The notes under the pieces: generated by a model | Databases searched by the model: none | What the model was told of the DNA's origin: nothing | What the model saw: only the letters and a program-made list of their open reading frames with translations | Program-made: the position numbers and the translations under genes | Source of the DNA: Desulfosarcina alkanivorans | GTDB lineage: Bacteria > Desulfobacterota > Desulfobacteria > Desulfobacterales > Desulfosarcinaceae | Direction of reading: 5' to 3' | Assembly: GCF_009688945.1 (NCBI RefSeq) | Contig: NZ_AP021874.1 | Span: forward strand, 1,550,001-1,614,000 | DNA length: 64,000 nucleotides | Part shown: in pieces, positions 7,277 through 34,849 of the stretch | How positions within the stretch are numbered: position 1 is the stretch's first letter | Layout: every line of letters starts with the position of its first letter

Positions 7277-7661
<385 letters not shown>

Positions 7662-9692: not shown

Positions 9693-9765
9693 TGGGCCCA
9701 CCTGGGATCGAACCAGGGACCGACCGGTTATGAGCCGGTGGCTCTGCCAACTGAGCTATGGGCCC
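9693..9765 (-). tRNA. tRNA with CAU anticodon (Met, or Ile2)
   Basis: A 73-nt cloverleaf: 7-bp acceptor stem GGGCCCA/UGGGCCC, D arm with AGCUCAGUUGG, anticodon stem CCGG/CCGG with loop CUCAUAA (anticodon CAU at complement of 9730-9732), T arm with GGUUCGAUCC, discriminator A. CCA is not encoded. CAU occurs in initiator and elongator tRNA-Met and in tRNA-Ile2, whose C34 is modified to lysidine. The paired 1-72 position argues against the initiator type. Sequence alone does not separate elongator Met from Ile2. Confidence 0.95.
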
Positions 9766-21227: not shown

Positions 21228-23471
21228 TCAGGCGTCCAGCTGCCGAAGCTCCCTTTTGAGGTGGCCGATCTTCTCCTGGAGAGACCGGGAGGACGCTTTC
21301 ATATGGTCCAGGGACGCAACGACCTTTTCCCTGTCCAGCCGCCGGGCCTGGATCAACGCCACCAGCCGGGACAGGTCGGCACCGTGGTGTTGGAACCGCT
21401 CCAGCAATTGGCGATACAAGGCCTCGGCGGCAGCATCGGCCAGTTTGAGCATGTACTGGAACTTGATGTTTTCCTTGTAGTCTTTCAGATGAAACAAGAT
21501 GGATCGCTCCGTCTCACGCTTCATCCGCTTGACCCCTGACATGAGCGCCAGAAACTGCTCGTGGTGGGCCTTGTCCCCCGATTTCTTAAATGCTTTTCTG
21601 AACAGGTTGACGATCTTGTAAAAACCGAACCGCATGACCGCTTCGGTTTTGATCTGGGTGGAGTAGCGCATGGTGGCCGCCGCCGGCGGCAGCGACAGGC
21701 CGGCCATCTTGCGGATCGCTTCCAGCTCCGCTCCGATGCGAATCGGTGATGCCGCCGGTTGCAGGAAGTGGCTTCCATTGTCCACGGCATCGGCGTACCG
21801 GGCCAGAGCCTCGTCAATCATGCCGCCGTATGGCCCGGCCATCTCATCCAGATAGCCCATGAGTTTCTTTTCCTGCGCCTTGATAAAACGGATGACCTGG
21901 GGATTGACGATTTCGGCCATGTGCGCATCCACCGCCTGCCGGAATTCCTGAAAGACCGTGTACAGGGTGTTGGCAAATCCCGCGCTGACCAGGCTGTCTT
22001 CGTAGCGCTGCATCTCCACCTGATAACTGCGGATAAAACGGACAACCCCGTCGACGACACCATCGGCATGCGCATCGAAGAACCGGTCAATGGCGGTTTT
22101 CAATTCACCTTTGACCTGGCTGACAGCCCCGCCCATGGTGTTTTTGACGGTCACCTTCAGGCGGTCCAGGCGGTCCCGCTGACCGTAGACGCGATCGCCC
22201 AGTTCCCGGGCACCACCGGCGTCGCGGGTCAGCAGGTCCCGATTGAAAGCAATCCAGTTGCCAAGCCCCCCGGCCACAATTTCCAATCGTTCAAGATGGT
22301 TTTTAAGCAGTAACGTGCTGCGCTCCCGGCTGATTTTCTTTTCCAGAAACCGGTGAAAGCGGATCCGCTCTGTTTCAATGAATTCAATCATGTCCGTTTC
22401 GCGGCGCCAATGGTCGAAACGGTCCCGGTCCCTCCGGGACAGATCGGATTCCATCTGGGACATGAGAAAAAACAGGGCCGAATAGGTAAAGGTCTCAGGA
22501 TTCGGGTGGATCAGGCGCAATTCCGCTTCTATTTTTTGAATCCCCCCGGAAAGGTCCGAAAGGGAATCATGCTCACTGAGATCGCAGTTCACCACGAACA
22601 CGACGCTGTCAAGGATTCCCATCTTCCGGATCATGGACAGAAACCGGATATCCGCCTGTCGGAGTCCGGTACGGCTGCTGATGACATAAACCGTAAGATG
22701 GGCCATGGTCAGGTAGTCCTGAATCATGGCCAGGTGCAGCGGGTTGGGCGAGTCGCTGCCCTGGCAGTCGGCAACCTCCACCCCTTGGCCAAGCCCCCCC
22801 GCATCGATTTCCAGCAACACATCTTTCAAATAGACGGCCATGGCATCATCGCCTACGAAATCCCGGTGCAGGGGGAACCGGCCGTTCTCGAAGACGACGG
22901 TGGCGTGGTCGGCCTCGACCAGTTGTTGCACCTGGTCGTACCCCTTGAGATAGGAAGCCATCAGCACGCTGCCGGCACTGCGGGTGTCATTGGCGATCAG
23001 CTGATCGGCCGCCAGGTCCGCCAGCGCCTGATCGAGGATCCGTCGGTCTTTTTCCCGGCGGATGTCAAATGACTGCTCATCGCCTGACTGGAGGTGAGCG
23101 GGCAGCAGCACCGATGCCCCATCGATGTCCCGGTTCACTTCATCCCAGTTTTTCAAGTAGAGGCTGGCCCGCAGTCGGCTGCCGGCTCTCACCCGGGTGA
23201 CGATGGATGTGACCACCCCCGCTCCCCGCTTTAGGTAATCACCTCCGAAGAGCGTATTCACAAAAGTACTTTTTCCTGATTTGATGGCACCGACAACGGC
23301 CACGCGCATCGTCTCTTCGGAGGTCTGCTCGGCAATGGTCCGGCAGGTGACTTTCCAGCGGGAAAGGCCCTCATCGGTCTGCTCGGTAATCTTCTCGGCG
23401 TCATCGAGAAGACGGGCCGTATCGTTGCTGATCCGGGTAAGCTGTTCCTTCAGTGTCTCGTATGATGCCAT
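21228..23471 (-). CDS. Large dynamin-like GTPase
   Basis: A protein of 747 residues. The GTPase domain has the P-loop GAIKSGKST (residues 61-69), a Thr-rich switch after AGVVTSIVTR, a DxxG-type motif in VADCQGSDSPN, and a possible G4 in VVNCDLSEHDSL (a departure from NKxD). The rest is long and helical, as in dynamin stalks, and ends in a coiled-coil-like tail. Bacterial dynamins remodel or tether membranes. Start at ATG 23471 was chosen; a GTG 13 codons upstream is possible, and neither has a strong ribosome site. It lies 218 bases upstream of the orphan parA. Confidence 0.82.
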   Translation of the reverse strand: MASYETLKEQLTRISNDTARLLDDAEKITEQTDEGLSRWKVTCRTIAEQTSEETMRVAVVGAIKSGKSTFVNTLFGGDYLKRGAGVVTSIVTRVRAGSRLRASLYLKNWDEVNRDIDGASVLLPAHLQSGDEQSFDIRREKDRRILDQALADLAADQLIANDTRSAGSVLMASYLKGYDQVQQLVEADHATVVFENGRFPLHRDFVGDDAMAVYLKDVLLEIDAGGLGQGVEVADCQGSDSPNPLHLAMIQDYLTMAHLTVYVISSRTGLRQADIRFLSMIRKMGILDSVVFVVNCDLSEHDSLSDLSGGIQKIEAELRLIHPNPETFTYSALFFLMSQMESDLSRRDRDRFDHWRRETDMIEFIETERIRFHRFLEKKISRERSTLLLKNHLERLEIVAGGLGNWIAFNRDLLTRDAGGARELGDRVYGQRDRLDRLKVTVKNTMGGAVSQVKGELKTAIDRFFDAHADGVVDGVVRFIRSYQVEMQRYEDSLVSAGFANTLYTVFQEFRQAVDAHMAEIVNPQVIRFIKAQEKKLMGYLDEMAGPYGGMIDEALARYADAVDNGSHFLQPAASPIRIGAELEAIRKMAGLSLPPAAATMRYSTQIKTEAVMRFGFYKIVNLFRKAFKKSGDKAHHEQFLALMSGVKRMKRETERSILFHLKDYKENIKFQYMLKLADAAAEALYRQLLERFQHHGADLSRLVALIQARRLDREKVVASLDHMKASSRSLQEKIGHLKRELRQLDA

Positions 23472-23752
23472 GTCGATCGTTGTCTCAAGTTTGGCGATTT
23501 TTCCGATCACGACGATTGCGGGAAAAGACGACCCGGTCGCCCGTGAAGGATCTTCCGGACGCCGGCCATGGTTTTTTACCTTTAAATGGGGCGATTGTCA
23601 AAGCCTTACCCAAGGACGCCCACCGATAACGGCATCCCCCTGAGGAACACAATGGCTTGTAAATCTTATGAGTTAATGATATACAACGATTCGAAATGAG
23701 ACGAGATGGGCGGTTCAAATGCGCCAAATCAAGAATAAGGAACGCCAGACAC

Positions 23753-24877: not shown

Positions 24878-24906
24878 TTGACTTGCCCGAAACGGGCTGT
24901 TAGGGG
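24878..24906 (+). promoter_or_regulatory. Possible promoter of the ilv leader
   Basis: TTGACT (24878-24883), a 17-base spacer, then TAGGGG (24901-24906). The -35 box is good but the -10 is poor. The position is sensible: transcription would start ~25 bases before the leader peptide. The rest of the 310-base gap between yqgE and the leader peptide shows nothing else. Confidence 0.3.
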
Positions 24907-24937
24907 TGTGACAACAATCAAATCGGTATGATAACAA

Positions 24938-25039
24938 ATGAATAGCTGTTTCGCCCTTATTAACCTTATTGGTCTTATTCTTATCCTCGTAGTGGGTATC
25001 CTTATCCGCGACGGGGAAACGGGGGCGATAACGGCCTAA
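24938..25039 (+). CDS. Branched-chain amino-acid leader peptide of the ilv operon
   Basis: A 33-codon frame. Between codons 7 and 23, fourteen of seventeen codons are Leu (6), Ile (6) or Val (2); the segment reads [17 protein letters not shown]. Such a run upstream of ilv genes is the hallmark of an attenuation leader peptide like IlvL or IlvB leader. Stalling of the ribosome at these codons would signal shortage of the end products. The stop codon lies just after hairpin segment 2, as the attenuation model requires. The ATG has no strong ribosome site, a weakness. An in-frame stop two codons upstream rules out an earlier start. Confidence 0.82.
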
Positions 25040-25102
25040 AACAGCCAACACCGGAAAATGCAAAATCCGTTATCCCCAAAGAGGCGATAACGGATTTTTT
25101 TT
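25000..25102 (+). promoter_or_regulatory. Transcription attenuator of the ilv operon
   Basis: Segment 2, GATAACGG (25027-25034, inside the leader peptide), can pair perfectly with segment 3, CCGTTATC (25067-25074), giving an antiterminator. Segment 3 extended (AAAATCCGTTATC, 25062-25074) can instead pair over 13 bp with segment 4 (GATAACGGATTTT, 25086-25098), followed by a run of eight T (25095-25102): a strong intrinsic terminator. Segment 1, CCTTATCCGC (25000-25009), can pair imperfectly with segment 2. The terminator ends 28 bases before ilvD. This geometry fits ribosome-controlled attenuation by charged Leu/Ile/Val tRNAs. Confidence 0.85.
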
Positions 25103-25130: not shown

Positions 25131-26798
25131 ATGAAAAGCGACATCGCCAAAAAAGGCATTGAACGGGCACCGCACCGGGCCCTTTTCAAAGCAATCGGCT
25201 ACACGGATGCCGAGATCAAACGACCGCTGATCGGGATTGCCAATGCCTTCAACACCGCGATTCCCGGGCATGTGCACCTGAACACCATCGCCCGGGCGGT
25301 CAAGGCCGGAATCTATATGGCCGGCGGCACACCGGTAGAATTCGGCACCATCGGTGTCTGCGACGGCATCGCCATGAACCATGCCGGCATGAAATACTCA
25401 CTGGCCAGCCGCGAGCTCATCGCCGACTCCATTGAGGTGATGGCCACCGGCCATGCCCTGGACGCCATGGTAATGATCCCCAACTGCGACAAAATCGTTC
25501 CGGGCATGCTCATGGCTGCCGCACGCCTGGACCTGCCCACCATCTTTGTCAGCGGCGGTCCCATGCTGGCCGGTGAACACCCTGAGCAACCCGGCCGTAA
25601 AATCGACCTGATTACCGTTTTTGAAGCCGTCGGCGCTGTCAAAGCCGGTAAGATGGAACCCGGACAGCTGGCGGCCATCGAGGACGCAGCCTGCCCCACT
25701 TGCGGATCCTGTGCGGGCATGTTCACGGCCAATTCCATGAACTGTCTGACCGAAGCAATCGGCATGGGCCTTCCGGGAAATGGCACCATCCCGGCCGTTT
25801 ATGCCGCCCGTGTGCGACTGGCCAAGCAGGCCGGCCTTCAGATCCTGGACCTGTGGAAACGCGGGATCACCGCAAGGCGAATCATGACCCCGGATGCATT
25901 TCACAACGCGCTGACCGTCGACATGGCGCTGGGATGTTCGACCAACACCGTGCTGCACCTGCCGGCCATTGCCGCAGAGGCCGGCGTGCAGCTGGACCTG
26001 AACATGATCAACACGATCAGCGAACGGACGCCTCACATCTGCTCGCTGAGCCCCGGCGGGGCGCACCATATTCAGGACCTGAACCGCGCGGGCGGCATCA
26101 GTGCGGTTCTCAAAATCTTGTCGACGGATAGATTGATCCATTCCGACTGCCTGACGGTAACGGGGGCGACCATCGCCGAAAACACCACTGCTGCCCACCC
26201 TCTTGACACCGACGTGATACGGCCTACGGATGCCCCCTACCACAAGCAGGGCGGCCTGGCCGTGTTGTACGGCAACCTGGCACCGGATGGATGCGTGGTC
26301 AAGCAGTCGGCCGTGCTCCCGGAAATGATGCGCCATGAAGGACCGGCCAGGGTCTTTGACTCGGAAGAGGCGGCGTCCGCCGCCATCATGGAGGGCCGCA
26401 TCAACAGGGGAGATGTCGTCGTCGTGCGCTACGAAGGTCCTAAAGGCGGACCGGGGATGCGCGAAATGCTCACGCCCACCTCGGCGATTGCCGGGATGGA
26501 CCTGGATGCGCACGTGGCCCTGATTACCGACGGCCGTTTTTCCGGTGGCTCCCGGGGAGCGGCCATCGGGCACGTCTCACCTGAAGCGGCCCAGGGCGGC
26601 ACCATTGCCATCGTCAACGAGGGAGACCGCATTGCCATCGACATCCCCTCAAAAAAGGTTTCACTGTTGGTGGCCGATGAGGAGATCAACCAGCGTATGG
26701 CCAAGTGGCGGATGCCGGAGCCGAAGATCCGCCACGGGTACCTGGCCCGCTACGCCCGCCAGGTATCATCGGCCTGTCAGGGAGCAGTGGTCAGATGA
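25131..26798 (+). CDS. ilvD: Dihydroxy-acid dehydratase
   Basis: An enzyme of 555 residues that dehydrates 2,3-dihydroxy-3-methyl acids to 2-oxo acids, the penultimate step for valine and isoleucine. Iron-sulfur cysteines appear in [12 protein letters not shown] and [19 protein letters not shown]. The C-terminal [13 protein letters not shown] motif is also typical. The start at 25131 matches family N-termini ([15 protein letters not shown]); the longer frame starts inside the attenuator terminator. It is the first gene after the attenuator, and a heptamer repeat begins at its stop. Confidence 0.96.
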
Positions 26799-26864
26799 CG
26801 GAGGACAGACGACAGAAGCCGGAAAACAGAGGTCGGATTTCCGATCTCCAACCTCGGACTTCAG
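26795..26864 (+). repeat. Ten degenerate heptamers between ilvD and ilvB
   Basis: From the ilvD stop codon to the ilvB ribosome site, the DNA reads as ten heptamers: ATGACGG, AGGACAG, ACGACAG, AAGCCGG, AAAACAG, AGGTCGG, ATTTCCG, ATCTCCA, ACCTCGG, ACTTCAG. All ten have A at position 1 and C at position 5, and nine have G at position 7. The repeat fills the intergenic space exactly. Confidence 0.6.
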
Positions 26865-26884
26865 TAAAAAGGAGTACGAAACCC

Positions 26885-28570
26885 ATGAAACTCACCGGAG
26901 CGCAGATTTTGATGGAAGTCCTCAAGGAGGAAGGCGTCGATTCCATATTCGGATTTCCCGGTGGCGCCACCATCGACATTCACGACAGCCTCGAAAAAAC
27001 CGACATCCGCCACTACCTGGTGCGCCATGAACAGGGCGCGGTGCATGCCGCCGACGGTTACGCCCGGGTCACCGGCAAGGTCGGCGTCTGTCTGGTCACC
27101 TCCGGTCCTGGCGCCACCAACGCCGTTACCGGAGTGGCCACCGCATACATGGACTCGATCCCCCTGGTGATCATCAGCGGCCAGGTCCCCACCCATCTGA
27201 TCGGCAACGATGCGTTCCAGGAAGTGGATATCGTCGGCATCACCCGGCCCTGCACCAAACACAACTACCTGGTTCCCTCGGTGGAAGAGCTGCCGCGGAT
27301 TCTCAAGGAAGCCTTTCACATCGCCCGATCCGGCCGTCCGGGCCCGGTACTGGTGGACATCCCTAAAAACGTGCAGCAGGCAACCACCGGCTTCAAACCC
27401 AGGCAGCGGGTCAACCTCAAGTCCTACAGCCCTACTTACAAACCCAATGCCAAGCAGCTGCGCAAGGTGGTGGACCTGATCAAGTCCGCCCGGCGGCCGG
27501 TGATTTTTGCCGGTGGCGGCGTAATTCTCTCCAAGGGCGCCCGGGAACTGACCAGACTGGCCCACACCACCCAAATTCCGGTGACCATGTCCCTCATGGG
27601 GTTGGGGGCTTTCCCCGGTTCGGATCCCCTCTCGCTGGGCATGATCGGTATGCATGGCACTTATCGCGCCAACATGAGCACCGCCGAATGCGACCTGCTG
27701 ATCGGAATCGGTGTACGCTTTGACGACCGGGTGACCGGCAAAACCGATTGCTTTGCCGCCCAGGCTGAAATCGTGCACATCGACATCGACCCCACCTCCA
27801 TTCGAAAAAACGTGCCGGTAAGTATCCCTGTGGTGGGAGACTGCAAGAGCAGTCTGGAAGTGATCAACGCCTACCTGGCGGAAGAGGATCCGGACGCGCT
27901 GGTTGCCAATCGCGGCCCCTGGCTGGATCAGATCGACGAATGGAAGCAGAACTACAAGCTGGCCTACGACCAGCAGGAGGAAATCAAGCCCCAGTTCGTG
28001 GTCGAAAAGCTCTATGAACTGACCCGGGGGAAAGCCATCATCACCACGGAAGTGGGGCAAAACCAGATGTGGGCGGCCCAGTATTATCATTTCGACCGGC
28101 CGGGCCACTTTGTCACCTCCGGCGGACTGGGCACCATGGGTTTCGGCCTGCCGGCAGCCATCGGCGCCCAGGTGGCCTTTCCCGATGCCCTGGTTGTGGA
28201 TGTGGCCGGAGACGGCAGCATTCAGATGAATATCCAGGAAATGGCCACGGCCATGCAATACAGCCTGCCGGTCAAGGTGGTGATCCTGAACAACTGCTAC
28301 CTGGGCATGGTCCGCCAATGGCAGGAATTGTTCTACGACAAACGCTATGCCTGCACCTGTATGGATCACGCACCCGACTTCGTCAAACTGGCGGAGGCCT
28401 TCGGGGCGGTTGGACTGCGGGCCACCCGGCCGGACGAAGTGGAAGATGTTCTGCACCGGGGCCTTGAAACCCCCGGCCCGGTGATCATGGATTTCAGGGT
28501 GACCAGGGAAGAGTGCGTCTACCCGATGGTTCCGGCCGGTGCCCCCATTACGGAAATGCTGCTGGTTTAG
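26885..28570 (+). CDS. ilvB: Acetolactate synthase, large (catalytic) subunit
   Basis: A TPP- and FAD-dependent enzyme of 561 residues that makes acetolactate (valine/leucine) or acetohydroxybutyrate (isoleucine). Signatures seen are the N-terminal GFPGGATIDIHD, the catalytic Glu in VRHEQGAVHAADGYAR, TSGPGATNAVTG, the TPP/metal motif with GDGSIQMNIQEMATA, and the following NNCYLGMVRQWQ. I chose the ATG at 26885 because AAAAGGAG precedes it and it matches the family start; the longer frame lies within the heptamer repeat. It is followed closely by ilvN. Confidence 0.96.
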   Translation: MKLTGAQILMEVLKEEGVDSIFGFPGGATIDIHDSLEKTDIRHYLVRHEQGAVHAADGYARVTGKVGVCLVTSGPGATNAVTGVATAYMDSIPLVIISGQVPTHLIGNDAFQEVDIVGITRPCTKHNYLVPSVEELPRILKEAFHIARSGRPGPVLVDIPKNVQQATTGFKPRQRVNLKSYSPTYKPNAKQLRKVVDLIKSARRPVIFAGGGVILSKGARELTRLAHTTQIPVTMSLMGLGAFPGSDPLSLGMIGMHGTYRANMSTAECDLLIGIGVRFDDRVTGKTDCFAAQAEIVHIDIDPTSIRKNVPVSIPVVGDCKSSLEVINAYLAEEDPDALVANRGPWLDQIDEWKQNYKLAYDQQEEIKPQFVVEKLYELTRGKAIITTEVGQNQMWAAQYYHFDRPGHFVTSGGLGTMGFGLPAAIGAQVAFPDALVVDVAGDGSIQMNIQEMATAMQYSLPVKVVILNNCYLGMVRQWQELFYDKRYACTCMDHAPDFVKLAEAFGAVGLRATRPDEVEDVLHRGLETPGPVIMDFRVTREECVYPMVPAGAPITEMLLV

Positions 28571-28586
28571 GATTGGGAAGAATACA

Positions 28587-29075
28587 ATGACGGAAGAAAA
28601 ACACATTTTAACCATGCTGGTGGACAATGAACCCGGGGTGCTGTCCCGCATCGTCGGATTGTTCAGCGGCCGTGGATTCAATATCGAGAGCCTCTGCGTG
28701 GCTGAGACCATCGACCCCCGGGTATCACGGATCACCATCGTCACCAAAGCCAATGAACCGCTCGTCGAACAGATCGAAAAGCAGCTTCGAAAACTCATCA
28801 ATGTGATCAAGCTCAGGGACCTTACCGGGTCCGGATCGGTTCAACGGGAGATGGCACTGATCTGTGTGCGGGCCAAGCCTGAAAACCGTGACGAGATTCT
28901 GCGGATGGTGGATATTTTCAGGTGCAAGGTTGTTGACGTGGGCCCCGAGTATTACATTATCGAGGCCACCGGGACCGCGGACAAGATGAAGGCCCTGGTC
29001 GACCTGCTCAAACCCATGGGAATCAAGAAAATCGCCCGGACAGGCACCATCGCCCTGTTCAGAGAGCCTCGCTGA
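28587..29075 (+). CDS. ilvN: Acetolactate synthase, small (regulatory) subunit
   Basis: A protein of 162 residues with an N-terminal ACT domain (LVDNEPGVLSRIVGLFSGRGFNIESL, about residues 8-33 plus following strands) and a C-terminal ALSS domain around residues 85-160. In the family this subunit activates IlvB and binds valine for feedback inhibition. GGGAAG lies 8 bases before the ATG, which is 17 bases after the ilvB stop. Confidence 0.95.
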   Translation: MTEEKHILTMLVDNEPGVLSRIVGLFSGRGFNIESLCVAETIDPRVSRITIVTKANEPLVEQIEKQLRKLINVIKLRDLTGSGSVQREMALICVRAKPENRDEILRMVDIFRCKVVDVGPEYYIIEATGTADKMKALVDLLKPMGIKKIARTGTIALFREPR

Positions 29076-29183: not shown

Positions 29184-30236
29184 ATGGCGAATATCGACTT
29201 TGGCGGAACGATCGAAGAAGTGGTCACATCAGAGGAATTTACCCTCCAGCAGGCGCGTGAGGTGCTGAAAAAAGAGACGGTCGCCGTGCTCGGCTACGGC
29301 GTGCAGGGTCCGGGACAGGCGCTGAACATGCGAGACAACGGTATTGCCGTGATCGTGGGCCAGCGGGAGGGCACCGCGTCGTGGGACAAGGCTGTCGCCG
29401 ACGGGTTCGTCCCCGGGGAAACCCTTTTGCCCATCGAAGAAGCCGCCAAAAAGGCCACGGTCATCCAATACCTGCTCTCAGACGCCGGCCAGGTCGCCAT
29501 GTGGCCCACCATCAAAAGCTGCCTGGACGAAGGGGATGCCCTCTACTTTTCCCACGGCTTCGGCATCGTGTACCGGGATCAGACCGGAATCGTTCCCCCG
29601 GAAAACGTGGACGTAATCCTGGCGGCGCCCAAGGGGTCCGGCACCACCGTGCGCACCAATTTTTTAGATGGCAGCGGCATCAACTCCAGCTTTGCCGTGC
29701 ATCAGGACTATACCGGGCGGGCCAGGGAACGCACCCTCGCCCTGGGCATCGCCATCGGCTCCGGCTACCTGTTCCCCACCACCTTTGAAAAAGAGGTCCA
29801 CAGTGATCTCACCGGCGAGCGCGGTGTACTCATGGGCTGTCTGGCGGGTGTCATGGAAGCCCAGTACAAGGTGTTGCGCAAGAACGGCCACAGCCCCAGC
29901 GAAGCCTTCAACGAGACGGTCGAAGAACTGACCCAGAGCCTGATCCGCCTGGTGGCCCAAAACGGCATGGACTGGATGTACGCCAACTGCAGCACCACCG
30001 CCCAGCGTGGCGCCCTGGACTGGGCCCCCCGCTTCCGGGATGCCGTGGCACCGGTGTTCGAACAGCTTTACCAAAGCGTGGTCACCGGTGAAGAGACCCG
30101 GCGAACCCTGGATTGCAACAGTGCCCCGGACTATCGGGAGCGGCTGGACGCGGAGCTCAAGACCATCCACGATTCTGAAATGTGGCGGGCCGGTGCCGCG
30201 GTACGCGCCCTTCGACCTGAAAACAGGCGCAAATAA
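29184..30236 (+). CDS. ilvC: Ketol-acid reductoisomerase
   Basis: Converts acetolactate or acetohydroxybutyrate to the dihydroxy acids by alkyl migration and NAD(P)H reduction. The 350-residue length fits the class I enzyme. The Rossmann motif VLGYGVQGPGQALNMRDNG is near residue 34. The metal-binding helices are around EVHSDLTGERGVLMG and the later NCSTTAQRGALDW segment. AAGGAG precedes the ATG. The loop after the second strand (VGQREGTASW) carries Arg and Ser-like residues, which usually indicate NADPH preference (inference). Confidence 0.95.
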   Translation: MANIDFGGTIEEVVTSEEFTLQQAREVLKKETVAVLGYGVQGPGQALNMRDNGIAVIVGQREGTASWDKAVADGFVPGETLLPIEEAAKKATVIQYLLSDAGQVAMWPTIKSCLDEGDALYFSHGFGIVYRDQTGIVPPENVDVILAAPKGSGTTVRTNFLDGSGINSSFAVHQDYTGRARERTLALGIAIGSGYLFPTTFEKEVHSDLTGERGVLMGCLAGVMEAQYKVLRKNGHSPSEAFNETVEELTQSLIRLVAQNGMDWMYANCSTTAQRGALDWAPRFRDAVAPVFEQLYQSVVTGEETRRTLDCNSAPDYRERLDAELKTIHDSEMWRAGAAVRALRPENRRK

Positions 30237-30302: not shown

Positions 30303-31970
30303 ATGGAACCGATCCTTATCTATGACACCACCTTGAGAGATGGCACCCAGGGAGAGAACGTCACTTTCACGGCCGACGAAAAGCTGAAAATCGCCATGCG
30401 GCTGGACGACATCGGCATCCATTACATCGAGGGCGGATGGCCCGGATCCAATCCCAGAGACATCCGTTTTTTCGATCTGGCCAAGCGGGAGCAGTTTAAA
30501 ACGGCCCGCATCACGGCCTTCGGGTCCACCAGAAAGCCGGGCATCGAAGCCGCCGACGATCCCAACCTGACGGCGATCATTCAAAGCGACACGCCAACGG
30601 CGGCGATATTCGGCAAAAGCTGGCCCCTTCACGTGCAGGCGATCATGGACAACACCCTTGAGGAAAACCTGGCCATGATCGCTGACAGCGTGGCCTTTCT
30701 CAAAAGCAGGGATCGGGAAGTGATTTACGACGCCGAGCACTTCTTCGACGGATTCAAGGATTCCCCGGACTATGCACTGGACACCCTGGTGGCAGCCTTC
30801 GACGCCGGCGCTGATTTTCTGGTTCTGTGCGACACCAACGGCGGCACCCTGCCCCACGAGGTGGAAGGAATCAGCCGGTCAGTCCTGGAGAGACTCAACA
30901 CCCGGGTGGGAGATGGAAGGCCGGTGAAGCTGGGCATCCATACCCACAACGACTGCGGCATGGCGGCGGCCAACGCCTTATCGGCCATCAATTGCGGGGC
31001 CGTCATGGTTCACGGCACCATCAACGGCTACGGAGAACGGTGCGGCAATGCCGACCTGACCACCATCATCCCTGTTCTCAGCGCTAAAATGAACCGTCCC
31101 TGCATCCCCGGAGAAAAATTGAGCGGCCTGAAAAGCCTCTCCCGGTATGTGAGCGAAACGGCCAACATTGTGCCGCTGAATGCCCGCCCTTTCGTGGGGC
31201 ACAGCGCCTTCGCCCACAAAGGCGGCATCCACGTGAGCGCCATCATGAAAGAATCCCGGGCCTACGAACACATGAACCCGGAAACCGTCGGCAATCAGCG
31301 CCGGGTGCTCATGTCCGACCTGGCCGGCAAGAGCAACGTGGAGTACAAGGCCAGGGAGATGGGGGTGGACCTCGGCGCCAACGGTTTCGACAGCAAGACC
31401 ATCGTGGCGGCCATCAAACAGATGGAAGACGAAGGGTACCAGTTCGACGTGGCCGACGGCTCGTTCCAGATCATGCTGGAAAAATTCACCGAACAGTTCA
31501 AGCCGTTGTTCGACCTGGAATCCTTCCGGGTGACCATCGAAAAGGACAAGGACCTGCCCTGTTCAGCCCATGCCACCATCAAAATATCGGTGGGCGACAA
31601 TCACGAGATCACCGCCGCAGAAGGCCTGGGTCCGGTAAGCGCCCTCGACAATGCCCTGAGAAAAGCACTGGGCAATTTCTACCCGGACCTGGACAGCATG
31701 CAGTTGGTCGACTTCAAGGTCAGGGTGGTGGATGGCCGGGATGGGACGGAAGCCAAGGTCCGTGTCTTTATTGAATCCCGGGATCAGGACCAGATCTGGA
31801 GCACCATCGGCGTCTCCGAAGACATCATCGAAGCCAGCTGGCATGCCCTGGCCGACAGTTTCCAGTTCAAACTGGCCAAAGAAGCCAGACAGGCAGGCAA
31901 ATTGCCGAAACCCGGCAGCGCCGTTGCCAGGAATTTAAAACTGGGATGGTCCATGTCGTGCATCGCGTGA
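30303..31970 (+). CDS. cimA: (R)-citramalate synthase
   Basis: A protein of 555 residues. The N-terminal TIM-barrel opens with IYDTTLRDGTQGENVTFT and carries the metal ligands in the HTHNDCGMAAANAL segment. The C-terminal LeuA-type regulatory dimer domain begins around residue 420. The TQGE variant of the DGEQ motif, the overall length and the ilv operon context point to citramalate synthase rather than isopropylmalate or homocitrate synthase. It condenses pyruvate with acetyl-CoA to start a threonine-independent route to isoleucine, known for example in Geobacter. No ilvA is present in the window, which fits. Confidence 0.9.
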   Translation: MEPILIYDTTLRDGTQGENVTFTADEKLKIAMRLDDIGIHYIEGGWPGSNPRDIRFFDLAKREQFKTARITAFGSTRKPGIEAADDPNLTAIIQSDTPTAAIFGKSWPLHVQAIMDNTLEENLAMIADSVAFLKSRDREVIYDAEHFFDGFKDSPDYALDTLVAAFDAGADFLVLCDTNGGTLPHEVEGISRSVLERLNTRVGDGRPVKLGIHTHNDCGMAAANALSAINCGAVMVHGTINGYGERCGNADLTTIIPVLSAKMNRPCIPGEKLSGLKSLSRYVSETANIVPLNARPFVGHSAFAHKGGIHVSAIMKESRAYEHMNPETVGNQRRVLMSDLAGKSNVEYKAREMGVDLGANGFDSKTIVAAIKQMEDEGYQFDVADGSFQIMLEKFTEQFKPLFDLESFRVTIEKDKDLPCSAHATIKISVGDNHEITAAEGLGPVSALDNALRKALGNFYPDLDSMQLVDFKVRVVDGRDGTEAKVRVFIESRDQDQIWSTIGVSEDIIEASWHALADSFQFKLAKEARQAGKLPKPGSAVARNLKLGWSMSCIA

Positions 31971-32225: not shown

Positions 32226-33764
32226 ATGACCGAGCACGTTAAAATATTCGACACCACCTTAAGGGACGGCGAACAGAGTCCCGGTGCCAGCATGAATACC
32301 AATGAAAAACTGCGTCTGGCCGTCCAATTGGAGAAACTGGGCGTAGATATTATCGAAGCGGGGTTTCCCGCTGCATCCGAAGGAGACTTCGAAGCCGTTT
32401 CTGAAATTGCCAAACGGTTGAAGTCGACCGAGGTGGCCGGCCTGGCGCGGGCAAACAAGGGCGACATCGACCAGGCCTGGGGGGCCATCCGGCACGCCGA
32501 GAACCCGCGCATTCACACCTTCATCGCCACCTCGGACATCCACCTGGACTACAAGCTGAAAATGTCCCGGGATGAGGTGGTCAACGCAGCCGTGGAGGCC
32601 GTCAAGTATGCCAAAACCTTCACCGACAACGTGGAGTTCTCCGCCGAAGACGGGTCCCGCAGCGATCGGGACTACCTGTGCAAGGTGTTCGGTGCCGCCA
32701 TCGAGGCCGGCGCCACCACGGTCAACCTGCCCGACACGGTGGGCTATGCCGTACCCCAGGAGTTCGAGGAGATGGTCAGGTATGTCATCGCCAACACCCC
32801 GAACATGCACAAGGCCACATTGAGTGTCCACTGCCACAACGACCTGGGGCTGGCCACGGCCAATACCATCGCCGCCATCAATGCCGGTGCCCGGCAGGCC
32901 GAAGTCACCATCAACGGTATCGGCGAACGGGCGGGAAACACCTCCATGGAAGAGGTCATCATGGCCCTGCACACCCGCCAGAACCTCATGCCCTTTGAAA
33001 CGGGCATCCGGACCGAGCACATCTACCCTTCCAGCCGTCTGGTCAGCATGATCACCGGCATCATGGTTCAGCCCAACAAAGCCGTGGTGGGCGCCAATGC
33101 GTTTGCCCATGAAGCCGGCATTCACCAGGACGGAATGCTCAAGAACCCCATGACCTATGAGATCATGAAACCGGAAACCATCGGCCTGAGCCGCAACAAC
33201 CTGGTTCTGGGCAAGCATTCCGGCCGCCATGCCCTTTATGCCCACTTGAAGACGCTGGGCTATGACCTCTCCGAAGACGAACTGAAGACGGTTTTCAAAC
33301 AGTTCAAGGCGCTGGCCGACAAGAAAAAACACGTCATGGACGAAGACCTGGAAGCCCTGGTCACCGAAGGCGTGCTGCGGTCTGCCGAAGTCTTCTCACT
33401 GGAATACCTGCACGTCACCTGCGGCACCACGGTCATGCCCATGGCCAGCGTAAAGCTGTCCATCAACGGTCGGTCCGTCAAAGGCGCCAACTACGGAAAC
33501 GGTCCCATCGACTCGGCATTCAACACCATCGCCCAGTTGACCAATGCCAGCGCCGAACTGCTGCGCTTTACCGTCAGCGCCCTGACCGGCGGCACCGATG
33601 CCCAGGGCGAGGTAACCGTTCGCCTGCGCGAAAACGGCCTGGTGGCCCTGGGCCGCGGTTCCGATCCGGACATCATCACCGCCAGCGCCAAGGCCTACAT
33701 CAACGGGCTGAACCGGCTGGAGTATCTGAAGGCCCACCCGGTCAAGGCGGTGCAGGGGATGTAG
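32226..33764 (+). CDS. leuA: 2-isopropylmalate synthase
   Basis: Condenses acetyl-CoA with 2-oxoisovalerate, the first committed step of leucine synthesis. The 512-residue protein has the catalytic IFDTTLRDGEQSPGASM motif at the N-terminus, metal-binding HCHNDLGLATANTIAAINAGA, the GIGERAGNTSMEEV motif, and a C-terminal LeuA regulatory domain from about residue 380 (leucine feedback site). GAAGGAG precedes the ATG. leuC, leuD and leuB are not in the window, so the pathway is split between loci. Confidence 0.95.
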   Translation: MTEHVKIFDTTLRDGEQSPGASMNTNEKLRLAVQLEKLGVDIIEAGFPAASEGDFEAVSEIAKRLKSTEVAGLARANKGDIDQAWGAIRHAENPRIHTFIATSDIHLDYKLKMSRDEVVNAAVEAVKYAKTFTDNVEFSAEDGSRSDRDYLCKVFGAAIEAGATTVNLPDTVGYAVPQEFEEMVRYVIANTPNMHKATLSVHCHNDLGLATANTIAAINAGARQAEVTINGIGERAGNTSMEEVIMALHTRQNLMPFETGIRTEHIYPSSRLVSMITGIMVQPNKAVVGANAFAHEAGIHQDGMLKNPMTYEIMKPETIGLSRNNLVLGKHSGRHALYAHLKTLGYDLSEDELKTVFKQFKALADKKKHVMDEDLEALVTEGVLRSAEVFSLEYLHVTCGTTVMPMASVKLSINGRSVKGANYGNGPIDSAFNTIAQLTNASAELLRFTVSALTGGTDAQGEVTVRLRENGLVALGRGSDPDIITASAKAYINGLNRLEYLKAHPVKAVQGM

Positions 33765-34204: not shown

Positions 34205-34237
34205 TTTTTAGGAAAAACCTTTCAGGAGGGTTTTTTC

Positions 34238-34849
34238 CTATTTCTTGAATTTCTTGCGACTCACGCCGGCCAGGCCGATGAGGCCGGTACCCAGCAGCAT
34301 CAGGGTGGCGGGTTCGGGGACGGGGGCGGCAGAGACCAGGACATCTTGACCTTGGTTTTCTGCTATCATCACCAACCCACCGCTATTGGACCAACCTTTT
34401 GAAACAGCAGAATTTGCACTGCTTATCAAAGAGTCCGCTTCAGCTCTGTGATCACCGCTATAGCTGGCGAGATCTCCATTTAAGATCCAGAAGGCATATT
34501 GCAATGCACTCTCGTTGGCGCCATCTAATCCGTTCAATTCCCAATTGTAATACAACCAGGCAATCTGGTTCCCTGTATTCTCCCATCTCGCAGTAACATC
34601 CGTTAATTTTTGTACTACATATGGTGTATTGGTGTAAGTGTTTTCGGTGTATTCAAGACAAAATGTTCCCCATGATTTGCCGCTGCCAACAATATTAAAA
34701 ACCATCTCGCCTGCCCTGGTAACAGGATTCCATGAATCTAATATGATAGAATCACCTTCTTCTACCTGATAAGGGATTGCGACTGCAGTCTGTGCTAATA
34801 TCAAGCACCCCAAGATGGTGCACAATAAAAACCCCAATAATTTCTTCAT
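34238..34849 (-). CDS. Secreted PEP-CTERM sorting-domain protein
   Basis: A protein of 203 residues with a signal peptide (about residues 1-24: MKKLLGFLLC..TAVA) and a C-terminal PEP-CTERM signal: VPEPATLMLLGTG, a hydrophobic stretch, then RKKFKK. The middle is rich in Asn, Ser, Trp and Tyr and looks like a beta-rich surface domain of unknown function. PEP-CTERM proteins are cut by exosortase/EpsH and associate with exopolysaccharide. No exosortase gene is in the window, so it would act in trans. The codon content is AT-richer than the neighbours. AGAGGATGAG precedes the ATG. Confidence 0.88.
   Translation of the reverse strand: MKKLLGFLLCTILGCLILAQTAVAIPYQVEEGDSIILDSWNPVTRAGEMVFNIVGSGKSWGTFCLEYTENTYTNTPYVVQKLTDVTARWENTGNQIAWLYYNWELNGLDGANESALQYAFWILNGDLASYSGDHRAEADSLISSANSAVSKGWSNSGGLVMIAENQGQDVLVSAAPVPEPATLMLLGTGLIGLAGVSRKKFKK

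Follow-up and report, generated by a model that had tools for sequence, protein, structure and literature searches.

The region upstream of ilvD in Desulfosarcina alkanivorans raises the question of how the genes for branched-chain amino acid synthesis are controlled in this bacterium and its relatives. The window analysed here, that is, the whole stretch of 64,000 nucleotides, spans 1550001-1614000 of a single 7.32-Mb contig from the genus Desulfosarcina, which belongs to the Desulfobacterales, a large and ecologically important order of sulfate reducers. A first-pass annotation of the sequence proposed a leader-peptide attenuator at this place. Our analysis assigns a probability of about 0.93 to the reading of the element as a ribosome-mediated transcription attenuator that responds to branched-chain amino acids. 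Leader-peptide attenuation is very likely how the Desulfobacterales ordinarily control the synthesis of these amino acids.

The leader ORF, as read from the sequence, has 33 codons and ends in TAA. Leu, Ile or Val (L/I/V) occupies positions 7, 8, 10, 11, 13-19 and 21-23, exactly the 14 L/I/V codons that the first-pass annotation had counted among the 17 of codons 7-23. With the L/I/V fraction in the operon's own proteins (0.223) as background, the chance of such a run is p ~2.5e-7, or ~0.03 across all window positions with the terminator and the operon context uncounted. The Shine-Dalgarno match of the leader ORF is weak (-3.0 kcal/mol). A putative promoter (Table 1) combines a -35 box TTGACT (24878-24883), a 17-nt spacer and a poor -10 box TAGGGG (24901-24906) with TGT in front, the start being predicted near 24913. 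A consensus promoter scan did not return this site; TTGACA or TTGACT followed by TGnTA recurs at the same place 5' of the leader in relatives. A leaderless leader mRNA transcribed from a TATGAT box at 24927 was also considered and dropped, the relatives' conserved promoter appearing to lie further upstream. The promoter spacer contains GCCCGAAACGGGC (24886-24898), an inverted-repeat-like sequence and possible operator, whose sequence is not conserved among the relatives seen.

Table 1. Window coordinates of the predicted attenuator and of the genes downstream of it
Feature	Position	Strand	Evidence
Putative promoter	24878..24906	+	Direct reading; weak
Leader peptide ORF	24938..25039	+	Sequence; median of 14 L/I/V codons in relatives
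Segment 1 (predicted partner of segment 2 if ribosome absent)	24945..24958	+	Minimum-energy structure
Candidate pause hairpin within the ORF, between segments 1 and 2	24984..25017	+	Fold; covariation
Segment 2, antiterminator 5' arm, core GATAACGG at 25027-25034	25021..25035	+	2:3 helix
Site of relatives' AUG-NNN-stop; here ACG GCC TAA, leader frame	25031..25039	+	Sequence comparison
Segment 3, common to antiterminator (2:3) and terminator (3:4)	25062..25074	+	Sequence, fold, alignment
Segment 4 and T run (25095-25102), predicted intrinsic terminator	25086..25102	+	Sequence; 3:4 helix
ilvD, first gene of the operon	25131..26798	+	NCBIfam NF002068/TIGR00110
ilvB (as listed; homology from residue 60)	26705..28570	+	NCBIfam
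ilvN (homology from residue 20)	28539..29075	+	NCBIfam
ilvC	29184..30236	+	NCBIfam
cimA (citramalate synthase)	30303..31970	+	TIGR00977
leuA	32226..33764	+	NCBIfam

Between the leader ORF and ilvD lies the predicted terminator, in which a 13-bp stem (AAAATCCGTTATC/GATAACGGATTTT, 25062-25098) and the run of eight T were found as the first-pass annotation had described them. The 5' arm of this stem has an alternative partner, also recognised in that annotation: the copy of GATAACGG at the end of the leader frame faces CCGTTATC at 25067-25074, and a second copy of GATAACGG stands at 25086-25093. Folding of the leader RNA, which had been suggested as a check, gave -61.9 kcal/mol, with z = -4.75 against dinucleotide shuffles and none of 200 shuffles as good. 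Segments 1 and 2 pair in the window's minimum-energy fold; the predicted segment 1 that masks segment 2 in RNA free of ribosomes is the start of the ORF, and not the Leu/Ile codons next to segment 2 alone. The covarying hairpin inside the ORF is a further refinement that the original layout needs. A short leader RNA of ~190 nt, with its 3' end at the T run, is to be expected.

Because of this anatomy, and of the established model for such leaders, we infer that the leader is translated, that ribosomes stall in it and that transcription terminates behind it. RNA polymerase would first make the leader RNA of ~190 nt. When charged Leu, Ile and Val tRNAs are ample, the ribosome would complete the 33-codon leader and occupy segment 2, and the 3:4 terminator would form ahead of ilvD. 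When they are scarce, the ribosome would stall in the L/I/V run 5' of segment 2 and block the 1:2 pairing; the freed segment 2 would then take segment 3 before segment 4 is synthesised, leading to read-through into ilvD-ilvB-ilvN-ilvC-cimA and probably leuA.

The dependence of pairing on ribosome position was modelled thermodynamically for the transcript up to segment 3, with pairing allowed only downstream of the ribosome; this model is crude and ignores kinetics. For the window with no ribosome, the 2:3 probability is 0.00, and termination would therefore be the default. In representatives of the relatives, the 2:3 probability is ~0.92-0.95 while the A site is within the L/I/V run and drops to 0 as soon as segment 2 is covered by the ribosome, which is consistent with the claim that a ribosome over segment 2 permits termination. 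The companion claim, that stalling at codons 7-23 frees segment 2, held only in part for the window: stalls at codons 7-13, 16, 17 and 23 free it in the model, whereas with a stall at codon 14, 15 or any of 18-22 a competing partner, probably CTTATCCGC on our reading of the sequence, stays available, and segment 2 is predicted not to be freed. This dip was not seen when the same model was applied to relatives.

The gene order ilvD-ilvB-ilvN-ilvC-cimA-leuA on the plus strand, given in the first-pass annotation, was confirmed by NCBIfam, as were the identities of the genes. The true start of ilvB is probably near 26882, because its homology begins at residue 60. From ilvD to the end of leuA the plus strand has one terminator-like site, a weak one inside cimA, and a stronger one follows leuA at 34211-34237. 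The attenuator would govern ilvD-ilvB-ilvN-ilvC-cimA as one operon, and its control probably extends to leuA. A 255-nt gap precedes leuA, in which no second attenuator was found and in which leuA may have a promoter of its own. Convergent with the end of the operon is a gene for a PEP-CTERM sorting-domain protein (34238-34849, minus strand). The minus strand of the window also carries RNase P RNA (class A; 7280-7656), a tRNA gene (9693-9765) and a region with a weak match to dynamin-like GTPases (21228-23510).

The arrangement 5' of ilvD recurs in almost every member of the genus and in most genera of the order. A promoter-like TTGACA comes first, followed by an ORF rich in L/I/V codons, then by a segment resembling GGTTGATAATGG, and finally by the terminator CCGTTATCAGCC...GATAACGG. 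A covariance model built from 44 leaders gave matches in 332 of 389 Desulfobacterales genomes, belonging to 135 of 150 genera, and this recurrence is the strongest support for the element. The genome of the window has a single copy; a second, minus-strand match is the same terminator palindrome, and the covariance model search found no further copy in this genome, for example before leuA. Some genomes have two copies (L116 and L117 in G074, L164 and L165 in G108), one of those in G074 preceding ilvB and the other ilvD. Weaker members occur in ~29 genomes from other families of the phylum, and a second covariance model, built from these out-of-order members, recovers a similar set. At 147 loci the first downstream gene, called as the first downstream tblastn match and in some cases from short flanks, is ilvD (94), ilvB (33), cimA (13), leuA (2) or unassigned (5). 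Only one of the 13 loci preceding cimA belongs to the Desulfobacterales, the cimA and leuA contexts otherwise coming from other classes of the phylum. In a set of loci from these classes (L096-L110, L260-L275), a related attenuator stands before cimA, and twice before leuA, and many of the leaders end in ..GLIMT* or similar.

The L/I/V-rich open frame is present in the leaders of every genus examined (82 genera), with a median of 14 L/I/V codons and a minimum of 10. Helix statistics were taken from a structure-blind MAFFT alignment of 44 sequences. In this alignment, the 2:3 helix has standard pairs in 91.3% of cells, with 19 double-change cells versus 7.2 in shuffles, and its pairing drops to 21-61% when the helix is slid; for the 3:4 helix the paired fraction is 98.5%. 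The hairpin inside the ORF reaches 72%, and in 8 of its 10 pairs both partners have changed; its mean z over 82 representatives is -3.9. The comparison of relatives called for by the first-pass annotation thus found the Leu/Ile/Val codons, the antiterminator and the terminator conserved and co-varying across the order. The 1:2 duplex has z = -3.3 when nucleotides are shuffled and only -0.8 when the shuffling is synonymous (82 representatives), and was not retained as an independently selected helix, being weak once the peptide is fixed. A mechanism independent of translation, in which the conserved RNA before ilvD would act as a riboswitch or bind a protein, is highly improbable: the covarying hairpin inside the ORF would suit such an RNA, and some ilv leaders elsewhere are classed as riboswitch candidates (PMC8632094), but the L/I/V-rich frame is kept in all genera examined, the conserved parts are the complementary segments and the terminator with no aptamer-like core, and identity with a known RNA family or riboswitch is ruled out by Rfam, where no family matched at gathering score and chance matches only were returned (E at least 0.6).

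Segment 2 of the relatives carries an addition to this attenuator. Its sequence there is GATAATGG, which contains an AUG that is absent from the perfect complement GATAACGG found in segment 4. Among 132 loci of the order, the leader shares the frame of this AUG at 44, uses another frame at 87 and is in frame 1 once. The 44 in-frame leaders nearly always stop two codons past the AUG. The 87 out-of-frame leaders, two thirds of the loci, end with UGA or UAA inside segment 2, just before the AUG or overlapping it. A two-codon mini-ORF, AUG-NNN-stop, starts in most relatives 2-5 nt after the first base of the leader stop codon. At the out-of-frame loci a stop stands at codon 3 of the AUG frame in 77 of 87 cases, and at each of codons 4-9 in 2-6 of 87; start and stop are both present at 75. 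After clustering at 70% identity the codon-3 stop is found in 48 of 57 loci versus a background of 6.7%, and it is kept in 52 of 60 genera and 33 of 37 families. These counts indicate that the stop is under selection in the AUG frame. Its identity varies between TAA, TGA and TAG, and the middle codon is variable as well (GCN, GTN, ACT, GAA, GAT, TTA and others). Selection of the AUG itself as a start codon is likely, though less certain than that of the stop, because the AUG lies in a paired segment, where a G-U pair could be the reason for keeping its U. The purine-rich run 5' of the mini-ORF has a pairing energy of -6.6 kcal/mol with the anti-SD versus -6.0 for shuffled sequences, and its bases are also pairing partners of segment 3. 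In the window, ACG replaces AUG, so that the start codon is lost and the leader reads through to the TAA as its own stop; by this comparison the window's copy has partly lost the conserved addition. Both start and stop are lost in L147 and L163 (genus g110). Most of the leaders from other classes mentioned above (L096-L110, L260-L275) also have AUG-NNN-stop or GUG-NNN-stop on segment 2.

We tentatively propose, at somewhat less than even odds, that a functional two-codon minigene lies on antiterminator segment 2 in the Desulfobacterales and at a few loci in other classes of the phylum. An arriving ribosome that has finished the leader would reinitiate at AUG-NNN-stop, or a new ribosome would load there, and would dwell on segment 2 during the synthesis of segments 3 and 4, so that termination would be favoured at amino acid sufficiency. 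If this is true, a translation initiation or termination event would serve as a second timer of transcription termination beside codon stalling.

The main competing explanation, doubtful in our view though it deserves to be taken seriously, is that the mini-ORF is a safety device: G-U weakening of segment 2 would create an AUG by chance behind a purine-rich run, and the stop would keep stray ribosomes off the terminator. In its favour, the U of the AUG faces a segment 3 G (a U-G pair in 41 of 44 sequences), and segment 4 has a C against this same G in 43 of 44. The coincidence of start loss with stop loss (Fisher p = 0.0013, from few informative loci that are not independent) is predicted by the safety device too. 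However, a change of this U to C would both abolish the AUG and improve the pairing, yet it is rare; GUG replaces AUG with the stop retained in L148, L101 and L105; and L107 keeps the AUG although its A is unpaired with segment 3.

The stop could also be a relic of recent use, if one-base indels often flip the leader frame between two designs. The coexistence of frames 0 and 2 inside single genera (g3, g13) agrees with such flipping, but families with every sampled member in frame 2 (f34, f11, f29, f16, f45) keep the stop across several genera while exchanging TAA, TGA and TAG, and the bases just after the mini-ORF stop are near random, which makes a relic improbable. It is likewise unlikely that the off-frame stop serves to intercept ribosomes after a -1 slip during stalling at hungry Leu/Ile/Val codons. 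Slipped ribosomes would get to this stop, since, upstream, the frame of the AUG stays open over a median of 19 codons; the AUG and its replacement by GUG are nevertheless left unexplained, frame-0 leaders would require a catch for the opposite slip, and the third frame has no stop conserved at a fixed place in the leaders. The idea of stops in all three frames was rejected on this last observation.

Attenuation was reportedly surveyed by Vitreschak et al. in 2004. The first-pass annotation had remarked that such control was little described in this phylum; in keeping with this, the open literature yielded no description of such an attenuator for the phylum and Rfam no family, and prediction in older surveys (Lopatovskaya et al. 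2010, Vitreschak et al. 2004) is possible. No report of a two-codon minigene inside an attenuator was found in the open literature. By principle the attenuator is ordinary, a new branch of a known kind that is order-wide and, as far as we found, undescribed. If the two-codon ORF works as proposed, it would be a new component for a textbook mechanism and a natural, testable case of a minigene as ribosome timer.

The enterobacterial leader-peptide attenuators of the ilv and leu operons include ilvL, ilvB and leuL of E. coli. The predicted attenuator resembles them in its short ORF with Leu/Ile/Val codons, its predicted 1:2, 2:3 and 3:4 alternatives and its intrinsic terminator before the first gene. 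It differs from them in its unrelated sequence, in the single leader for ilvD-ilvB-ilvN-ilvC-cimA and probably leuA, in the hairpin nested between segments 1 and 2 and, in relatives, in the two-codon ORF on segment 2. The uORF attenuator of Corynebacterium ilvBNC, the ilvB-II motif, likewise combines a uORF rich in branched-chain amino acid codons with alternative terminator and antiterminator structures, and the available portions of its descriptions mention no AUG-NNN-stop (PMC10272879, PMC11857589); it belongs to another phylum, has another operon order and is confined to the genus Corynebacterium (PMC11109978). Two-codon minigenes are known from the bacterial leaders of LEE1 ler, axe-txe mg2 and B. 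subtilis ycbK, where an AUG-sense-stop acts in cis on expression, through the translation of the next gene or mRNA stability (PMC8708949); the mini-ORF of the relatives, in contrast, occupies the antiterminator arm in a transcription attenuator and is found repeatedly through the order. Finally, a leader stop adjoining a new start codon is shared with reinitiation at leader genes (PMC4833913), with the difference that the start there is that of the structural gene, whereas here it opens a two-codon ORF far 5' of the gene.
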